DNA of 35,198 nucleotides from a virus. A program made the translations under genes and the position numbers. The stretch's first letter is position 1. Each line of letters begins with the position of its first letter. The notes beneath the pieces are model-generated. The model searched no databases. It saw only the letters and a list, made by a program, of their open reading frames with translations, and was not told the origin of the DNA. Location: IMG/VR virus record IMGVR_UViG_3300034110_000353, positions 1 through 35,198 of that record; one strand, written 5' to 3'. Below, piece by piece: positions 5,948 to 35,198 of this stretch.

Positions 5948-6352
5948 ATGGCACCACATTTTAAAAGCCCTGAAGAATTACAGCAAAAAATCGACGCTTA
6001 TTTTAACTATGGCGTAAGGTCTAAAACAGTATTAATCGGAAAGGATAAAATACCGACTGAAATACCAATTCCAACAATTAGCGGACTCGCTTATTACTTA
6101 GGATTTGCGTCGCGTCAATCCTTTTATGATTACGAAAAAATGGAAAATTATTCTTACACCATAAAAAGGGCGCGTTTATTTATAGAAACTGAATACGAAA
6201 TGCAATTATCTGTCGGTAATACAACAGGCGCAATTTTTGCCCTTAAAAATATGGGCTGGATTGATCAAATTAGCACAGATTTAACGACTTTAGGCAAAGA
6301 AATTAAACAAGCTCCGTCGATAGTGTTTAAAACGTTTAAAAACGATGAGTGA
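5948..6352 (+). CDS. terS: Terminase small subunit
   Basis: 134 residues. The pattern KSPEELQQKIDAYF at the start, a helix-turn-helix-like GLAYYLGFASRQSFYDYE (about 46-63), and AIFALKNMGW (about 92-101) match gp3-like small terminases, which bind the packaging site and load the large subunit. The ending ...FKTFKNDE overlaps the large terminase start by 8 bases. It is directly upstream of terL, as usual. Confidence 0.85.
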   Translation: MAPHFKSPEELQQKIDAYFNYGVRSKTVLIGKDKIPTEIPIPTISGLAYYLGFASRQSFYDYEKMENYSYTIKRARLFIETEYEMQLSVGNTTGAIFALKNMGWIDQISTDLTTLGKEIKQAPSIVFKTFKNDE

Positions 6353-7619
6353 CATTGAAATTTCGAGTAAATTCGAACCATTATTTCAATTATTGGACGA
6401 TACGGCGTTCCCTGAAGTTGATACAGTCGTATTGACTGGGGGGCGATCGTCGTCTAAGTCTTATAACGTTGCTTTGCTGTCGTTAATTGGTTTAGTTCAA
6501 TACGGCTGGAAATCGCTTTATACACGATTCACGAATACAAGTATAGGGGATTCAATTAAGACGGAAGTAAGCGACAAAATAGAACTTTTAAATTACGAAG
6601 ATTACGTCGAAGATCAAAAATATCAAATAATAAACCGTTTAAACGACGGACATATATCGTTTAAGGGTATAAAGACTGGATCTAAGGGACAAACGGCTAA
6701 CTTGAAAGGGCTTTCAGGGTTTAACTGTTTTATCGTTGATGAGGCGGAAGAAATACCGTCATTTGAAACATTTAAAAAAGTATTTTATTCGATACGGCAC
6801 AAAGAACGTCGTAATTTATCAATTTTGATATTAAATCCAACGATAAAAACACATTGGATCTATAAAAAACTATTCAAAGAAAAAAATATCCCTGACGGAT
6901 TTTGTGGCGTTGTCGATAACGTCCTTTACATACATTCCAGCTATTTAGACGTAAAACCTGAGTACATACCTAAAAATATCGTAAAAGATTACGAGCGAAT
7001 GAAAATAGAAAACCCAAACGAATACAAAAATATTGTTTTGGGGGGTTGGATTTCTGAGCTGGAGGGTACTTTATTTAAACGTAAAGAATTAAAAACTTTT
7101 GCGATTAGTCAGGTAGATTTTACGGCTTCAGTTGGTAAACTTGCGTTTATTGACGTTGCGGACACAGGAAGCGATTTTCATTGTGTTGTAATTGGGGAAT
7201 TGTTGGGCGATAAAATTTATATTATTGATGTGTTATTTACGCCACTTTCGACGGTTGAAAATGTTGATCTAAGCGCGCAAATTTTAAATAAACACAACCC
7301 TGAATTCGTACGTATCGAATCCAACTTCGGGGGATCAATGTATAACAGCCTTTTAACGCCTAAACTAAACACGTCAATAACGCCGTTATCGATTAGGGCG
7401 ACAACGAACAAACATTCGAGAATTATTCAAATGTCAGGATTTATAAAAAATCATTGTTTATTTAGAAACGACTACGAAATAGGATCGGACTACGATTTAT
7501 TTATGGAAAATATCCACGAGTACACCTCAGACGGCAAAGCTGAACACGACGACGCGCCAGACGCACTCGAGGGGCTTTGTTCAATGATTAGATCGTTTCA
7601 CTCGCATTTATGGCAATAA
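6345..7619 (+). CDS. terL: Terminase large subunit
   Basis: 424 residues, PBSX-type terminase. ATPase half: Walker A-like GGRSSSKS (32-39), Walker B FIVDEAEE (129-136), and LNPT coupling segment (163-166). RNase H-like nuclease half: Asp270 and Asp273 in FIDVADTG, a central RIESN motif, and HDDAPDALE (401-409) near the end. It powers DNA translocation into the prohead and cuts concatemers. Nothing looks broken. It is followed by a 455-base gene-free block and then the portal gene on the opposite strand; in related phages the portal follows directly on the same strand. Confidence 0.93.
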   Translation: MSDIEISSKFEPLFQLLDDTAFPEVDTVVLTGGRSSSKSYNVALLSLIGLVQYGWKSLYTRFTNTSIGDSIKTEVSDKIELLNYEDYVEDQKYQIINRLNDGHISFKGIKTGSKGQTANLKGLSGFNCFIVDEAEEIPSFETFKKVFYSIRHKERRNLSILILNPTIKTHWIYKKLFKEKNIPDGFCGVVDNVLYIHSSYLDVKPEYIPKNIVKDYERMKIENPNEYKNIVLGGWISELEGTLFKRKELKTFAISQVDFTASVGKLAFIDVADTGSDFHCVVIGELLGDKIYIIDVLFTPLSTVENVDLSAQILNKHNPEFVRIESNFGGSMYNSLLTPKLNTSITPLSIRATTNKHSRIIQMSGFIKNHCLFRNDYEIGSDYDLFMENIHEYTSDGKAEHDDAPDALEGLCSMIRSFHSHLWQ

Positions 7620-8010
7620 AACAAACTTTTTACTGCTTTTTACTGACTTTTTTTTAAGTTTTTCTTAGTGTTTATATGGTTTATAGCTGAATAGTAAAAA
7701 TAAAAAAAGTTTTTCCCTATTCTTATATACATTTTTTCAGGGAGTTTGTAAAAAATATTTTTTTTCTAAAAAAGTTTAAAAGTTTTTACTAATTGCCCTC
7801 AAACCCTTTACCAGCCTCAGAAAAAGTTGAGTAAAAAGTCAGTAAAAACATCTAAGTTTATAGTAAACTTTTTACTTATTTACTATAATAGACGTGAAAA
7901 AAGAATAATTATAATACTAAACTATAAAATTTTATAGCAAAAAATGGCGGTTTTACTGAGAAAAAGTTAAGTAAAAACTTTATTATGTTAAATAGACTTT
8001 TTACTATAAA
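7620..8010. repeat. Iteron-like block A (TTTTTACT / AGTAAAAA array)
   Basis: Gene-free and very AT-rich. TTTTTACT occurs at 7627, 7637, 7783, 7869 and 7998, and its complement AGTAAAAA at 7693, 7830, 7841 and 7970. Neighbouring sites are 10 or 11 bases apart (7627/7637 and 7830/7841), one helical turn. It shares GTTTTTCTTAGTGTTTA (7658-7674) and the order of elements with block B at 29770-30012. It could be a replication origin, a partition-like or regulator-binding site. Confidence 0.75.
7922..7937. promoter_or_regulatory. 16-bp palindrome in block A
   Basis: CTATAAAATTTTATAG is a perfect palindrome and resembles the CTATAAA-AG-TTTATAG operators at 28556 and 34224 and the related site at 29984. 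Confidence 0.55.
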
Positions 8011-8041
8011 CAAAAAAAAACCTACCTTATTAGGGTAGGTT
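8011..8041 (-). terminator. Rho-independent terminator of the portal gene
   Basis: On the minus strand, AACCTACC (8041-8034) pairs with GGTAGGTT (8026-8019) around a 7-base loop and is followed by a run of T (8020-8012). It lies about 33 bases after the portal stop codon. Confidence 0.85.
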
Positions 8042-8074
8042 AAAAAGATCCAATAAATTAATCGGACGTTTTTA

Positions 8075-9301
8075 TTATTGTAAATTGATTATTTCTTTTA
8101 ATTCGTTTGTTGAATATTGCCCTGTTTGTAATAAAGTATTAAAGGCATTCGCTTTTTTCTCGAGTACTTCGGCTTTCTCTTTTAAATTTTCCTGAAGCGC
8201 TGGGATATGTGAATAGTCCAATTCCAACCATTCGCCACGTTCAACAAGTCCAAATAATTGCGATCTATTCATAGCCAGCTCTTCAGCTTCAGGAATTATC
8301 GTTGATTGATAAGCCTGTTTAATTCCCTCCGCTAAATTTTCGTAGGTTGCGCCTTTGTCGCGTGTGAATAAATTATCATTTAAACCGTATTGATCAATAA
8401 TTGAATTAAAATCGGCGTTTACTTCCTCAAATAACATTAAGTCTTTAGTCGGGAACGTCATCGCTTGCCACGTTAAAGCCGTGTTCGTCATAATAACCTG
8501 ACTTTTTTCCTTTTGGATTCCGAACATACGATTATATTCCTTATCTAATCGCTCGCGTTCGGCTGGAGTCAACGGTATTGCTCCCTGACTATCTTTTGAA
8601 TTATTTGATAAAATACCTAACGCACCTTTTTTATTCATTATTACGTTACGAAATTCGTACGAAGCGCGAATATTAGATATTGGCATATAAATAGGGATCA
8701 TTGGCGATTCCCCTTTAATTGGATTTTTACCATTAACAACGCGCGTGTGATTTATTTCGTTTGTTTCGAATATTTCGTAACTATCGCCACGTTCCAATTT
8801 ATAATTTTTAATTACTTCATTAATATCTTTTTGACGGTAAATTTTTCCTGTTGTATTGATTTCGATTTGTGCTGGTGGTAAATTTGTCAATTGCTGAGGC
8901 ATTAACATTGAAGCCGATCTATTTACAAATTCGTAATTATTTCCGTAAATACATTTATTTTCATTCCATTGACGAATTAAATCGTTACCATTCATAAAAA
9001 TATTAGGATTTTCCAATAAATTAACGAAAGGGCTATTTTCTACGATTGTAGCTTTTCCGCCTACGGTTTTGTAGTGTTTCCATTGTCCCGAAGCCAAAAG
9101 GTAGCCACGACGTTGAATAACTGCATAAAGTTGAGGCGTTGTTAAGTAGATATTATAGGCGTCCCAATTGTCAGGGCTTAAAAATTGCGCTGATCCTGTT
9201 AAGACTTGCGACATATAAGACAAATTTTTCGTTCCTGAGTAGGATAAACGACCGCCGAGAAAGGCGTTAAAAAAGTCTGGAATACTTATTTTCATATACA
9301 A
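8075..9301 (-). CDS. Portal protein (HK97-type)
   Basis: 408 residues, the size expected for HK97-family portals. Characteristic features are the early AYNIYLTTPQLYAVIQRRG segment (48-66), the ENPNIFMNGNDLIRQW region, a central stem-like part (EFRNVIMNKKGALGIL), and the C-terminal helical part with EGIKQAYQSTIIPEAEELA. The dodecameric portal forms the DNA gate at one capsid vertex. It is the only structural gene on the minus strand, though its place between terminase and protease is canonical. It has its own terminator and a candidate promoter. A second Met lies two codons in. Confidence 0.88.
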   Translation of the reverse strand: MYMKISIPDFFNAFLGGRLSYSGTKNLSYMSQVLTGSAQFLSPDNWDAYNIYLTTPQLYAVIQRRGYLLASGQWKHYKTVGGKATIVENSPFVNLLENPNIFMNGNDLIRQWNENKCIYGNNYEFVNRSASMLMPQQLTNLPPAQIEINTTGKIYRQKDINEVIKNYKLERGDSYEIFETNEINHTRVVNGKNPIKGESPMIPIYMPISNIRASYEFRNVIMNKKGALGILSNNSKDSQGAIPLTPAERERLDKEYNRMFGIQKEKSQVIMTNTALTWQAMTFPTKDLMLFEEVNADFNSIIDQYGLNDNLFTRDKGATYENLAEGIKQAYQSTIIPEAEELAMNRSQLFGLVERGEWLELDYSHIPALQENLKEKAEVLEKKANAFNTLLQTGQYSTNELKEIINLQ

Positions 9302-9474: not shown

Positions 9475-10316
9475 CAAAAGAACAAGAAATTGAACACGTT
9501 TTCGTAAATAAGGAATTAATTATTTCAAGAAAAAAAAACGAAGTTAAACACGCTGACGTTGTTTTGAATGTTTCATTAAATGAAGCTGAAGAAAATACCA
9601 ACAAAGCCGTTACGGATCTAAGCGCTGAAGATATTAACGTATTAAACGCTAAATTAGTGATCAATACAACTAATTTAATTGATTCGCATTTAGATTGCCA
9701 CGTTCCTAATATTTGGAATAAATCATTAAAGGAAATCGGCACGTTCTTTTTATTACAGGAACACGAAATGGAGTTCGATATGGTTATCGCTGATTCTGTT
9801 AACGATAATTTAAAGGCATACGTTGAAAATATAGCGTGGAATAAATTAGGCTTTAAATATGCTGGAGAAACGCAAGCGCTAATCTTTGAAACACAAATTA
9901 AAAAGGATCGTAACGAATTTATGTTTAACCAATACCGTAAAGGTTACGTTTTAAACCATAGCGTTTCAATGCGCTACGTTAAAATGTTCCTTTGTATTGA
10001 TTCAAACGAGCCTACTTATTCAAGTGAAAAATCAAACTGGGATAAATACTATCCGATTGTAGCAAATAAAGAAGTAGCCGACGAGAAAGGTTATTTTTGG
10101 GCTGTTACTGAGGCAAAAGTAATCGAGGGTTCGGCTGTTGTAAAAGGATCTAATTTTGCAACGCCAACACTTGAAATCGAAGTTGAAAATAAAACTGAAA
10201 ATATTGAAGCCGTCGAGGACACTTCAAAGATCGAGCCGTCTAACGACACTCAGGAAAAACAAATAACGCCCGACGAGGCACAAAAACAATTTTTTATTAA
10301 TCTTCTTAAAAACTAA
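9471..10316 (+). CDS. Prohead maturation protease
   Basis: 281 residues. NTTNLIDSHLDCHVPNIWNK (65-84) carries the probable catalytic His73, and YVLNHSVSMRYVK (159-171) carries the probable catalytic serine (164 or 166), the His-then-Ser order of HK97/U35-type prohead proteases. The acidic tail after about residue 230 (EVENKTENIEAVEDTSK) may act as an internal scaffold that is removed later. The gene lies directly before the capsid gene with a 2-base gap, as in HK97-like modules. It cleaves the capsid N-terminal delta domain during maturation. Confidence 0.85.
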   Translation: MTKEQEIEHVFVNKELIISRKKNEVKHADVVLNVSLNEAEENTNKAVTDLSAEDINVLNAKLVINTTNLIDSHLDCHVPNIWNKSLKEIGTFFLLQEHEMEFDMVIADSVNDNLKAYVENIAWNKLGFKYAGETQALIFETQIKKDRNEFMFNQYRKGYVLNHSVSMRYVKMFLCIDSNEPTYSSEKSNWDKYYPIVANKEVADEKGYFWAVTEAKVIEGSAVVKGSNFATPTLEIEVENKTENIEAVEDTSKIEPSNDTQEKQITPDEAQKQFFINLLKN

Positions 10317-28548: not shown

Positions 28549-28579
28549 ATTGCTACTATAAAAGTTTATAGTATATTTG
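28549..28579 (+). promoter_or_regulatory. Early promoter 1 with embedded palindrome
   Basis: ATTG (28549-28552) and TATATTTG (28572-28579), 19 bases apart. The palindrome CTATAAA-AG-TTTATAG (28556-28571) fills most of the spacer and ends at the -7 box. The 29 bases 28557-28585 are identical to 34225-34253 upstream of the ERF gene. Confidence 0.7.
28556..28571. promoter_or_regulatory. Operator-like palindrome 1
   Basis: CTATAAAAGTTTATAG: two 7-base arms that are exact reverse complements around AG. Its placement between the promoter elements suits a repressor site. Confidence 0.6.
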
Positions 28580-28608
28580 TATCACGAAACAATTAAAACA
28601 AAACAAAA

Positions 28609-29768: not shown

Positions 29769-30012
29769 AAACTTTTTACTTGTTTTTACTGTCTTTTTAC
29801 TGGGTTTTTCTTAGTGTTTACAAGGAATAGTTAAAAAGTAAAACTTTTTTACATATTACTTAAATATATTTATTTCTTTACTTTACTTAAAAAAAAAAAA
29901 TTTGAAAAAAACTTTAAATGTTTTTACTTTTGCCCTGAAACGTAGAGCCTGACTCAGAAAAAGTTAGTAAAAAGTGAGTAAAAAGATAAAATTTTATAGA
30001 AAAGTTTTTACT
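29769..30012. repeat. Iteron-like block B (TTTTTACT / AGTAAAAA array)
   Basis: Gene-free. TTTTTACT at 29773, 29783, 29794, 29921 and 30005; AGTAAAAA at 29966 and 29977. The first three are spaced 10 and 11 bases, and the last pair 11. It shares GTTTTTCTTAGTGTTTA (29804-29820), a TTGCCCT...CAGAAAAAGTT segment and the following site pair with block A. An A-tract and AT-rich core lie between. It sits just upstream of the SF3 helicase operon, a usual place for a phage origin. Confidence 0.75.
29984..29999. promoter_or_regulatory. Palindrome in block B
   Basis: AGATAAAATTTTATAG, with a 12-base perfect core (ATAAAATTTTAT). It matches the palindrome at 7922-7937 at 14 of 16 positions and takes the same place relative to the AGTAAAAA pair. 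Confidence 0.5.
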
Positions 30013-30027
30013 ATTTAAAAATTTTTA

Positions 30028-30035
30028 TATATTTG
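30028..30035 (+). promoter_or_regulatory. Candidate -7 box of the helicase operon
   Basis: TATATTTG at 26 bases before the ATG at 30061. The region 20 bases upstream is T-rich (GTTTTTACT) without a perfect TTTG, and overlaps the last iteron-like site (30005-30012), so a protein bound there could control this promoter. Confidence 0.5.
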
Positions 30036-30060: not shown

Positions 30061-30249
30061 ATGGAAACAATTACTCAATTACTTCGGGATCGCTTCCCAA
30101 ATTTGGAAATTTCCTATTCAGGAAAAACAGTAACCGTAAACGGTATTATTCAATACAAAGAAATATTCAGGCTATGCCACGAATATAATTCGGTAAAAGA
30201 ATATAGTTTATTTATGCTCGACGGCTTAACTGTAATAACTTTTTTATGA
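30061..30249 (+). CDS. Small protein upstream of the helicase, 62 aa
   Basis: METITQLLRDRFPNLEISYSGKTV start, compact alpha/beta pattern, overlapping the helicase start by 4 bases (ATGA). Co-translated with the helicase and therefore possibly a partner or a DNA-binding accessory, but this is only context. Confidence 0.55.
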   Translation: METITQLLRDRFPNLEISYSGKTVTVNGIIQYKEIFRLCHEYNSVKEYSLFMLDGLTVITFL

Positions 30250-31688
30250 AACGATTTTGGACGGAAACGGAAAACGGTCGTATATTCTTAGATAATTACG
30301 ATTTTAAGTTTTTTTTAGAGGATAAAAATTTCTTCAAAAATAAACCAAACGAAAAAAGTAGTTTTAACATAATTTGTAAGGACGGAATTTTTCTTAAAAT
30401 TTACGACGAGCTGGACGTTAAGGATTACGTTTTAGATTATATTTTAAATAACGACATCGGCAAAAGGGTTTACAATTTAATGACTGGCAAAGCGTCAATT
30501 TTTACTCGTCAATTTTTATCAATGATTAAGACGGAAGAAATTAACGTATTGCGCGATACAAAAGATACAGCGTTTTTATTTTATCAAAACGGCGTTGTTG
30601 AAATTAATAAAGACAAAGACGAATTAAAACCTTACGAAAGTTATGGATTGCACGTTTGGGAGGATCAAGTTATAAAAAGGGACTATATTCCAGCCGACCA
30701 CCATACGAGCGAATACAGGACGTTTATTTGGAAAATTTCAGGCGGTTTCGATTTACCACAAAACGCAACGCCTCAGGAATTGGAAACTTATAACACCGCC
30801 GTAGATCGTTACAATACGTTTCAAACTGTTATCGGTTACTTATTACACAGTTACAACGTAGGGGGCGATAATAAAGCGATAATATTAAACGACGAATTAA
30901 TTTCAGACGATCCAAACGGAAGAAGCGGAAAGGGTTTATTTTGGAATGGTTTAAAACACCTTAAAAAAGTTCAATCATTGAACGGAAAATCGTTTAAATT
31001 CGACGCTCCTTTTCCTTATCAAAGTGTAAAAACTGACTGCCAAATATTAGTTTGGGACGACGTTAAAAAGAACTTTGATTTTGAACAGCTATTTTCTGTA
31101 ATTACTGAGGGGATCGAAATAACGTATAAAGGCAAAGATACGATTAAACTACCGATCGAAGAAAGTCCGAAAATATTAATTACAACAAACTACACAATTA
31201 AGGGGAAAGGCGGAAGCCACGACGCTCGAAAATTTGAAGTTGAACTTTCAACGTTTTTTAATTCAGATTACACGCCGATAGATTTTTTCGGGCATAAACT
31301 TTTTGACAGCTGGGACGATCAGGAATGGGCGCGCTTCGATTGTTATATGATTGAATGTTTAAAAAAGTATTTAACAAATGGGTTGATGTCTTATAAGTCG
31401 ATTTCGTTACCGTTTAAAAAATTACAGGTTGAAATTAGCAAAGAATTATTTGAATGTATTGAAACAACGCCACGAAACGAATGGATCGACGCGAATACAT
31501 TTTACGATACTTATATTTCAATGATCCCGAAACGTTGGAACGCTAAAACAAAAAACAGCGTAACGATTGATTTAAAAAAATATTGTAAATTTTACGGGCT
31601 GGAATACGAATCTATTTTGAGTAATGGAATTAAAAAATTCAGTATAAATAAAAGCGGTTTTGAAAATTTAACAAATGATCCTTTTTAA
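30246..31688 (+). CDS. SF3 / D5-like replicative helicase (DUF5906-type)
   Basis: 480 residues. Walker A in DDPNGRSGKG (221-230), Walker B ILVWDD (267-272), and the SF3-type sensor ILITTNY (310-316), then an arginine-containing region (DARKFEVELS). The N-terminal ~200 residues resemble the linker part of D5-type phage proteins; I see no zinc or TOPRIM primase motif, so it may depend on a host primase or only unwind DNA. It would act at the origin, which could be block B directly upstream. A few tiny genes follow in the same operon. Confidence 0.85.
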   Translation: MKRFWTETENGRIFLDNYDFKFFLEDKNFFKNKPNEKSSFNIICKDGIFLKIYDELDVKDYVLDYILNNDIGKRVYNLMTGKASIFTRQFLSMIKTEEINVLRDTKDTAFLFYQNGVVEINKDKDELKPYESYGLHVWEDQVIKRDYIPADHHTSEYRTFIWKISGGFDLPQNATPQELETYNTAVDRYNTFQTVIGYLLHSYNVGGDNKAIILNDELISDDPNGRSGKGLFWNGLKHLKKVQSLNGKSFKFDAPFPYQSVKTDCQILVWDDVKKNFDFEQLFSVITEGIEITYKGKDTIKLPIEESPKILITTNYTIKGKGGSHDARKFEVELSTFFNSDYTPIDFFGHKLFDSWDDQEWARFDCYMIECLKKYLTNGLMSYKSISLPFKKLQVEISKELFECIETTPRNEWIDANTFYDTYISMIPKRWNAKTKNSVTIDLKKYCKFYGLEYESILSNGIKKFSINKSGFENLTNDPF

Positions 31689-34022: not shown

Positions 34023-34239
34023 TCTTAAAATTTCATTAAAAAAACCAGCCAAAAACACAAAGTTAATAGTAAAAATATTGGAAAAATACCCTGTTATTTT
34101 AGACGAAAACAAAAATTTACCACAAAAAGAAAAAAATAAATTAGCCCTGAAACACTTGAAAACATTAGAATTATGCGATTTTGAAATAAAAAATTTAAAA
34201 TTTTCTTCAAATATTTGTTATATATATAAAAGTTTATAG
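34000..34239 (+). CDS. Hypothetical Lys/Leu-rich protein, 79 aa
   Basis: MYAIYIVDLKISLKKPAKNTK start, then basic helices (LPQKEKNKLALKHLKTLE) and an aromatic end. It overlaps the nuclease gene by 23 bases in another frame, and its last bases lie within the palindrome of the ERF promoter. Not recognised. Confidence 0.45.
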   Translation: MYAIYIVDLKISLKKPAKNTKLIVKILEKYPVILDENKNLPQKEKNKLALKHLKTLELCDFEIKNLKFSSNICYIYKSL

Positions 34240-34247
34240 TATATTTG
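34214..34247 (+). promoter_or_regulatory. Early promoter 2 (ERF/exonuclease operon)
   Basis: TTTG (34214-34217) and TATATTTG (34240-34247), 22 bases apart, slightly long. Bases 34225-34253 are identical to 28557-28585 at promoter 1. The start codon is at 34271. Confidence 0.7.
34224..34239. promoter_or_regulatory. Operator-like palindrome 2
   Basis: ATATAAAAGTTTATAG, differing from palindrome 1 (28556) at the first base only, in the same place relative to the -7 box. Confidence 0.6.
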
Positions 34248-34270
34248 TATCACATAAAACATAAAACAAA

Positions 34271-34909: not shown

Positions 34910-35180
34910 ATTTCGCCCGTCAAGTATCGGTAAAATAATGACTGGATTCGATACGCCAAATTTAACGGAAGTAATGGAACGCGATTTAAGCGAATTACTT
35001 GCAAAAGTTACCTTAACGGAAGCGCAAGCAAAAAAACGCGACGAATTAACAAAGCGTCGCGATGCTGAAAAACAGCTTTCGGCTGGAGCTATCACATACG
35101 TTCACGACTTAGTAGATCAAATTTATTACGATTATAAGGATTTTATTACTTCTAAATATTTCGACAAGGGTATTATTTGA
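34890..35180 (+). CDS. YqaJ/lambda-exonuclease-like nuclease, N-terminal part (continues at 2-583)
   Basis: Start ATG inside the end of the ERF gene. The first residues (FRPSSIGKIMTG) are the recognition-like start typical of YqaJ-type nucleases, followed by a Lys/Glu helical region. The frame stops at TGA 35178-35180 only because the sequence folds back onto the other strand there; the true frame continues as in bases 126-583, giving 248 residues in total. See the entry at 2-583 for catalytic residues. Confidence 0.8.
   Translation: MQFQNYKFRPSSIGKIMTGFDTPNLTEVMERDLSELLAKVTLTEAQAKKRDELTKRRDAEKQLSAGAITYVHDLVDQIYYDYKDFITSKYFDKGII
35054..35179. repeat. Terminal direct repeat, right copy
   Basis: Identical to bases 1-126. 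After this point the sequence no longer matches the expected continuation (GCGAAC at 126-131). Confidence 0.95.
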
Positions 35181-35198
35181 TCTACTAAGTCGTGAACG
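35175..35198. repeat. Fold-back end
   Basis: The last 24 bases are the reverse complement of 35099-35122. The joint uses a 5-base micro-identity (ATTTG). This is the usual look of a chimeric amplification or assembly end and creates a false stop codon. Confidence 0.85.

Follow-up and report, generated by a model that had tools for sequence, protein, structure and literature searches.

Iteron-like blocks linked to a replication helicase gene in a Bacteroidetes-type phage: candidate initiator-binding, origin-type sites

Genomic setting and organisation of block A

The window, i.e. the whole stretch of 35,198 nucleotides analysed here, is one complete virus record (IMGVR_UViG_3300034110_000353 of IMG/VR) whose two ends share a 126-bp repeat (period 35,053), giving a circular map. 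The record end (35054-35198) repeats bases 1-126 and then continues into an inverted stretch of ~19 bases, probably an assembly artefact. Among annotated DNA relatives, the closest are for the most part Flavobacterium phages, which match chiefly over the methylase gene, and a search of the window for structured RNA gave no Rfam match and no tRNA. Within the window, terL, encoding the terminase large subunit (6345-7619, + strand), and the portal protein gene (8075-9301, - strand) converge on a gap (7620-8074) that holds no ORF of at least 60 aa, in agreement with the gene-free interval of the original prediction. The portal gene is reversed relative to the terminase and capsid genes, and L073, a more distant relative, likewise has portal and terL in opposite orientations. 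A terminator-like hairpin with a T run, read from the sequence at 8010-8041 on the - strand, would serve the portal transcript.

Block A (7627-8005), located in this gap, contains nine exact TTTTTACT/AGTAAAAA sites, at 7627 (+), 7637 (+), 7693 (-), 7783 (+), 7830 (-), 7841 (-), 7869 (+), 7970 (-) and 7998 (+). All nine lie where they had been placed before, including the pairs 10 and 11 bp apart (7627/7637 and 7830/7841). Local dinucleotide shuffles gave a mean of 0.56 sites and a maximum of 4, and nine or more were reached in 0/2000; this count, suggested with the original prediction as a way of refuting it, upheld the view that the block is more ordered than AT-rich filler. Over the whole window 27 sites were observed against 8.98 expected, and block A, together with a second block (block B) described below, holds 16 of the 27 in 1.8% of the sequence.

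The sites are arranged in two arms around a spacer. The left arm (7625-7672, +) carries two iterons (7627, 7637), a third unit that is degenerate, and the core TTTTTCTTAGTG; it is followed by a spacer of 76% AT (7673-7815) with one iteron (7783-7790) and an accessory site (7693-7700). The right arm (7816-7876, -) is an inverted repeat of the left arm, with the core CTCAGAAAAAGTT, iterons at 7830 and 7841 (both -) and a closing iteron at 7869 (+). Beyond it, a partial third stretch resembling the right arm can be read from the sequence at 7954-8005, carrying the accessory sites at 7970 (-) and 7998 (+). The perfect 16-bp palindrome CTATAAAATTTTATAG that had been pointed out in the block does exist, at 7922-7937, and exceeds all others of the window in length; its significance did not hold up, since 78/1000 shuffles of block A contained one of equal length, and it was rejected as a functional element.

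A homologous block upstream of the helicase gene

Block B, at 29771-30012, is homologous to block A and had been missed earlier. It contains seven sites, a count that 0/2000 shuffles reached. Its left arm (29771-29818, +) carries iterons at 29773, 29783 and 29794 and the core TTTTTCTTAGTG, its spacer (29819-29952, 80% AT) one iteron (29921-29928), and its right arm (29953-30012, -) the core CTCAGAAAAAGTT, iterons at 29966 and 29977 (-) and one at 30005 (+). Both blocks consist of two inverted arms of ~10-11-bp units around an AT-rich spacer of 143 bp (A) or 134 bp (B) and follow the same order: TTTTTACT units, TTTTTCTTAGTG, spacer, CTCAGAAAAAGTT with inverted units, and a closing TTTTTACT, which stands 28 bp after the last inverted unit in both. 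BLASTN aligned the two blocks with 75% identity over 264 bp, and in the window the identity amounts to 85% for the left arm and 87% for the right arm, compared with 57% for the spacer.

Bacteroidetes-type promoters have a -7 box with the consensus TAnnTTTG. Downstream of block B lies TATATTTG (30028-30035, +), which by this consensus we take to be the -7 box of the helicase operon. It is followed by a 62-aa ORF (30061-30249, +) and by the gene for a putative SF3/D5-type helicase of 480 aa (30246-31688, +) with a predicted C-terminal winged helix (residues ~392-470), the proposed iteron-binding initiator. A TAnnTTTG box was not found in block A, in line with the earlier view that the block, lying between convergent genes, is not needed as a promoter. 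Elsewhere in the window, a promoter segment of ~26 bp, AAAAGTTTATAGTATATTTGTATCAC, with a TATAAA/TTTATA palindrome, precedes two early genes (28556-28583 and 34226-34252).

Conservation of the two blocks in close relatives

The conservation of block A was assessed in eight genomes, namely the window and seven contigs. Among the 10 relatives closest by terL, these seven extend into the gap, and the contigs of L014, L015 and L018 stop short of it. The block lies between terL and the portal gene, in L013 at the contig end directly after terL. Across the eight genomes, the six sites that A has in common with B show no variable column (0/48, against 56/368 outside all sites, p=0.001). The three accessory sites (7693, 7970, 7998), which are absent from B, vary in 7/24 columns, and pooling all nine sites gives a difference that is not significant (7/72 against 56/368, p=0.27). 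Counted by region over the eight copies, variable columns number 2/48 in the left arm, 28/143 in the spacer and 5/61 in the right arm. In block B, compared over four genomes, 0/56 site columns vary against 37/235 others (p=2.6e-4). Block A has thus passed the second proposed check, that of conservation in relatives, and the alignment indicates that its arms are still under constraint. As block A is devoid of the promoter box, helicase transcription does not explain this conservation.

Linkage of iteron blocks to the helicase gene across phages

Of the window's genes, the helicase gene alone is common to all 29 relatives compared. In total, 132 distinct helicase loci were considered, encoding either a short helicase (460-496 aa), the form present in the window, or a long form of mostly 780-800 aa; three long-form helicases scanned contain a BT4734-like N-terminal domain. 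A further 14 distant helicase relatives in genome contigs (26-40% identity) were left out of the block counts. A flank was scored as repetitive if the commonest 8-mer in the 1 kb beside the gene exceeded the best of 100 shuffles. The upstream 1 kb passed in 38/119 loci (24/50 of the short form and 14/69 of the long form, three of these 14 being a simple 3-base run, TACTACTA, rather than iterons, although kept in the count) and the downstream 1 kb in 2/121 (1/48 short form, 1/73 long form), counts that are not independent as the loci are related to one another. Upstream of the remaining 26/50 short-form loci this strict test failed.

When 19 genomes were scanned blind to gene position, 16 of them, including the window and G009, proved to have five or more copies clustered no further than ~1.6 kb upstream of the helicase gene. 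Of the three genomes without such a cluster, G005 and G021 have a degenerate block discernible by eye and G014 has none. Of the 19 genomes scanned, the window and G009 alone had a further cluster of the same word at a distance, and the partial contig G010 (L017) also carries both blocks. All two-block genomes share a single word. Any other word goes with just one block, and in single-block genomes this block sits at the helicase gene. Among the genomes compared, a second copy was found only in the window's clade, to which it appears limited. Two iteron sets around an AT-rich region were also read by eye in several relatives. The iteron-like nature originally proposed for block A can therefore be framed more precisely, blocks A and B being two copies of an array that accompanies the replication helicase gene in a phage family.

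Clusters of unrelated words also occur in G001, G005, G019 and G022, those located away from the helicase block including AAAATGCT (11 copies, G001:33709-33976, in L036), ACCACTCG (10 copies, G005:23039-23282, in L038) and ACCATAAC (12 copies, G019:11793-11955, in L253). Several relatives, although not the window, have a leader RNA between the promoter and the helicase operon (L072:9886-9973, L217:4403-4488, L222:5180-5266, plus other relatives), with two helices in the order 1-2-1'-2' (H-type pseudoknot). Of 16 leaders extracted, 10 were aligned; pairing holds in 95.5% of cells, and 11/20 pairs have changed on both sides, a result matched by 0/500 shuffles. By a crude search, a leader-type arrangement is present in 27/50 short-form loci, four of the 27 being the iterons themselves; there was no Rfam match in 12 loci scanned, and a brief literature search listed nothing on the leader. 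In L072, a short ORF with similarity to the helicase N-terminus (9929-10282) directly precedes the full helicase gene, as if the start of the gene had been duplicated.

Lineage-specific iteron words

The iteron word differs between lineages, with AGTAAAAAGT in the window and AGGAAAAAGTT, AGTGCAAAGT, CGTAAAAAGT, CAATAAAAGTT, TGTAGAAAGT, AGTGGACTTT, AGTAATCTTT, AGGCATAAAGT, ATAAAGTCAACA, AATAAGTTAA and ATCTCTACA in others; these words, including those used in the co-variation comparisons below, were assigned partly by eye. The arm-to-arm distance is ~139-155 bp in loci with both cores recognised. Since the arm spacing is steady and the words differ, the scaffold appears to be kept and the word rewritten in each lineage.

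Iteron similarity tracks the winged helix (rho 0.36) no better than it tracks the whole helicase (0.35), and the assignment of iteron reading to one helicase domain was rejected, as all domain-wise correlations lie between 0.15 and 0.37. Among pairs that are 80-96% identical, on average 34% of the differences fall in the winged helix if the iterons differ (15 pairs) and 23% if they are alike (20 pairs), although the pairs are non-independent and exceptions occur (L212/L217 with 13%, L047/L074 with 50%). Between L055/L140 and L057/L063 the word changes at ~90% helicase identity, and 26/37 fixed differences, five of them tail gaps, fall in residues 400-480. This comparison was not retained as a sign of winged-helix reading because other pairs do not repeat the pattern.

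Features of the helicase protein

Over its full length, the 480-aa helicase aligns with the helicase portion of its longer relatives, and it has no primase part. It carries GRSGKG, VWDD and TTN blocks, which presumably represent SF3 motifs, although the window protein has no Pfam match of any kind; a PDB sequence search with A1 gave no match. The AlphaFold model of the winged helix (residues 386-472) has a pLDDT of 91.5. Structural comparison with VIA placed the P4 origin-binding domain 1ka8 among the best matches of this domain (Z 7.2-7.4, rmsd 2.5, 71 residues, 17% identity), level with many winged helices that are unrelated; the domain alone had no Foldseek match at E<=0.001. For the whole helicase model, the best VIA match was the SaPI5 primase-helicase (Z 8.8, rmsd 4.3, 241 residues), and Foldseek pointed to pox D5/E5 and AsfvPrimPol, the AAA+ core being modelled at low confidence.

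Blocks A and B as candidate origin-type sites

We assign a probability of roughly 0.7 to blocks A and B being iteron sites of origin type at which the initiator of the phage's own SF3-helicase replicon binds, with B as the ancestral origin and A as a promoterless duplicate. According to this model, the 480-aa helicase would use its C-terminal winged helix to bind the ~10-bp units in both inverted arms, two helicase assemblies would form facing one another, the AT-rich spacer would melt, and host polymerase would take over, perhaps together with host primase, given that the N-terminal domain fused to the long relatives is missing from the short helicase. The roles of B, located upstream of the helicase gene, as origin and of the helicase as initiator are proposed by analogy. 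An origin had been among the functions first suggested for block A, and the linkage of the array to the helicase gene and its conservation speak for this suggestion, while binding, melting and firing are steps that we infer rather than observe here. GC skew shows no switch at block A or B. A literature search on iterons with SF3 helicases or on Flavobacterium/Bacteroidetes phages found no description of these blocks, a weak negative as subscription journals were thinly covered.

Block A looks like a derived copy, since in L073, where terL and the portal gene converge in the same way, the gap contains a 472-aa ORF and no block, and since single-block genomes have theirs at the helicase gene. 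P4 has two separated repeat sites, ori and crr, and plasmids P1 and F have extra iteron control clusters, incA and incC, away from the origin. Block A may be pictured as a second origin, a P4-crr-like helper or an incA-like control site, roles that would look alike in sequence; most likely it is a helicase-binding site that would serve as a spare or helper origin. Whether it would be active as a second origin in its own right is rather doubtful. Equally tentative is the broader proposal that the origin architecture stays constant while the iteron word is rewritten per lineage, as in incompatibility groups, and that the window's clade comprises two-origin phages whose late region holds, 22 kb from the first, a second origin, complete and promoterless.

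Several other explanations may be considered. The one that survives best, a possible yet clearly less probable account, holds that block A is not an origin, but an initiator sink or handcuffing site that limits initiation at B. It would suit a promoterless block between convergent genes that has the same iterons as B and conserved arms, and control clusters of this type need no origin function; such a site, however, would not need the spacer and the inverted two-arm layout, both of which are kept in A. An early regulator could instead bind the blocks as operator arrays, B controlling the helicase operon and A acting as regulator sink. Although B abuts the TATATTTG promoter and a site spacing of 10-11 bp suits cooperative binding, we consider this unlikely, as the core sites of A are invariant despite its lack of a promoter box, each block extends over ~240 bp with two inverted site sets, and the helicase alone is common to all relatives compared, no other protein going with the block. 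The packaging-related role also raised for block A, as a pac/cos or end-processing signal, would fit its position next to terL, but is very improbable and was abandoned, since the homologous block B adjoins the helicase gene, the block goes with the helicase rather than the terminase in other relatives, and the corresponding gap of L073 is without a block. Chance repeats in AT-rich filler have a negligible probability, even at the ~78% AT of block A, given the shuffling results for either block and the conservation of the arms above that of the spacer.

Comparison with known replication systems

Taken as origin-type initiator sites, blocks A and B are comparable to several known systems. Extra iteron clusters as in P1 incA and F incC are a likeness to the window, although block A keeps full origin-like symmetry, and the Rep initiators of iteron plasmids with control clusters are not SF3 helicases. 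The window resembles P4 alpha/ori/crr in having two separated repeat sites and, by prediction, an SF3-type helicase whose C-terminal winged helix would bind the repeats. According to PMC4234260, P4 alpha binds the origin repeats with its winged helix and carries a TOPRIM primase. In alpha this primase is fused to the SF3 helicase, whereas the 480-aa protein of the window has no primase part, and the iteron words differ. The pRN1 and BIP-1 replicons likewise use an SF3 helicase with a C-terminal winged helix as initiator but, according to the same source (PMC4234260), have a proposed stem-loop 3' of the gene and no iterons. A related primase-polymerase, that of NrS-1, is described in PMC8718748.

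The SaPI/PICI Rep-ori systems resemble blocks A and B in that PICI origins contain an AT-rich region with one iteron set on each side (PMC6092414), and SaPI Rep and Cch2 recognise iterons with their C-terminal domain (PMC7581432). In the known SaPI/PICI origins covered by the former source, however, the origin lies 3' of rep (PMC6092414), whereas the window blocks lie 5' of the helicase. SaPIs and PICIs are satellites that depend on helper virion genes, whereas the window encodes terminase, portal, capsid and tape measure, and the present systems further differ in belonging to Bacteroidetes-type phages, in their short SF3 helicase without a fused N-terminal domain and in the two blocks of the window's clade. 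A layout close to that of PICIs recurs in SF3-helicase phages of Bacteroidetes type, here on the opposite side of the gene. At least ten iteron words on one scaffold would provide a natural series for studying origin recognition by a helicase initiator and the emergence of new replication specificities, and block A offers a clean test of why a small phage keeps a second initiator site.
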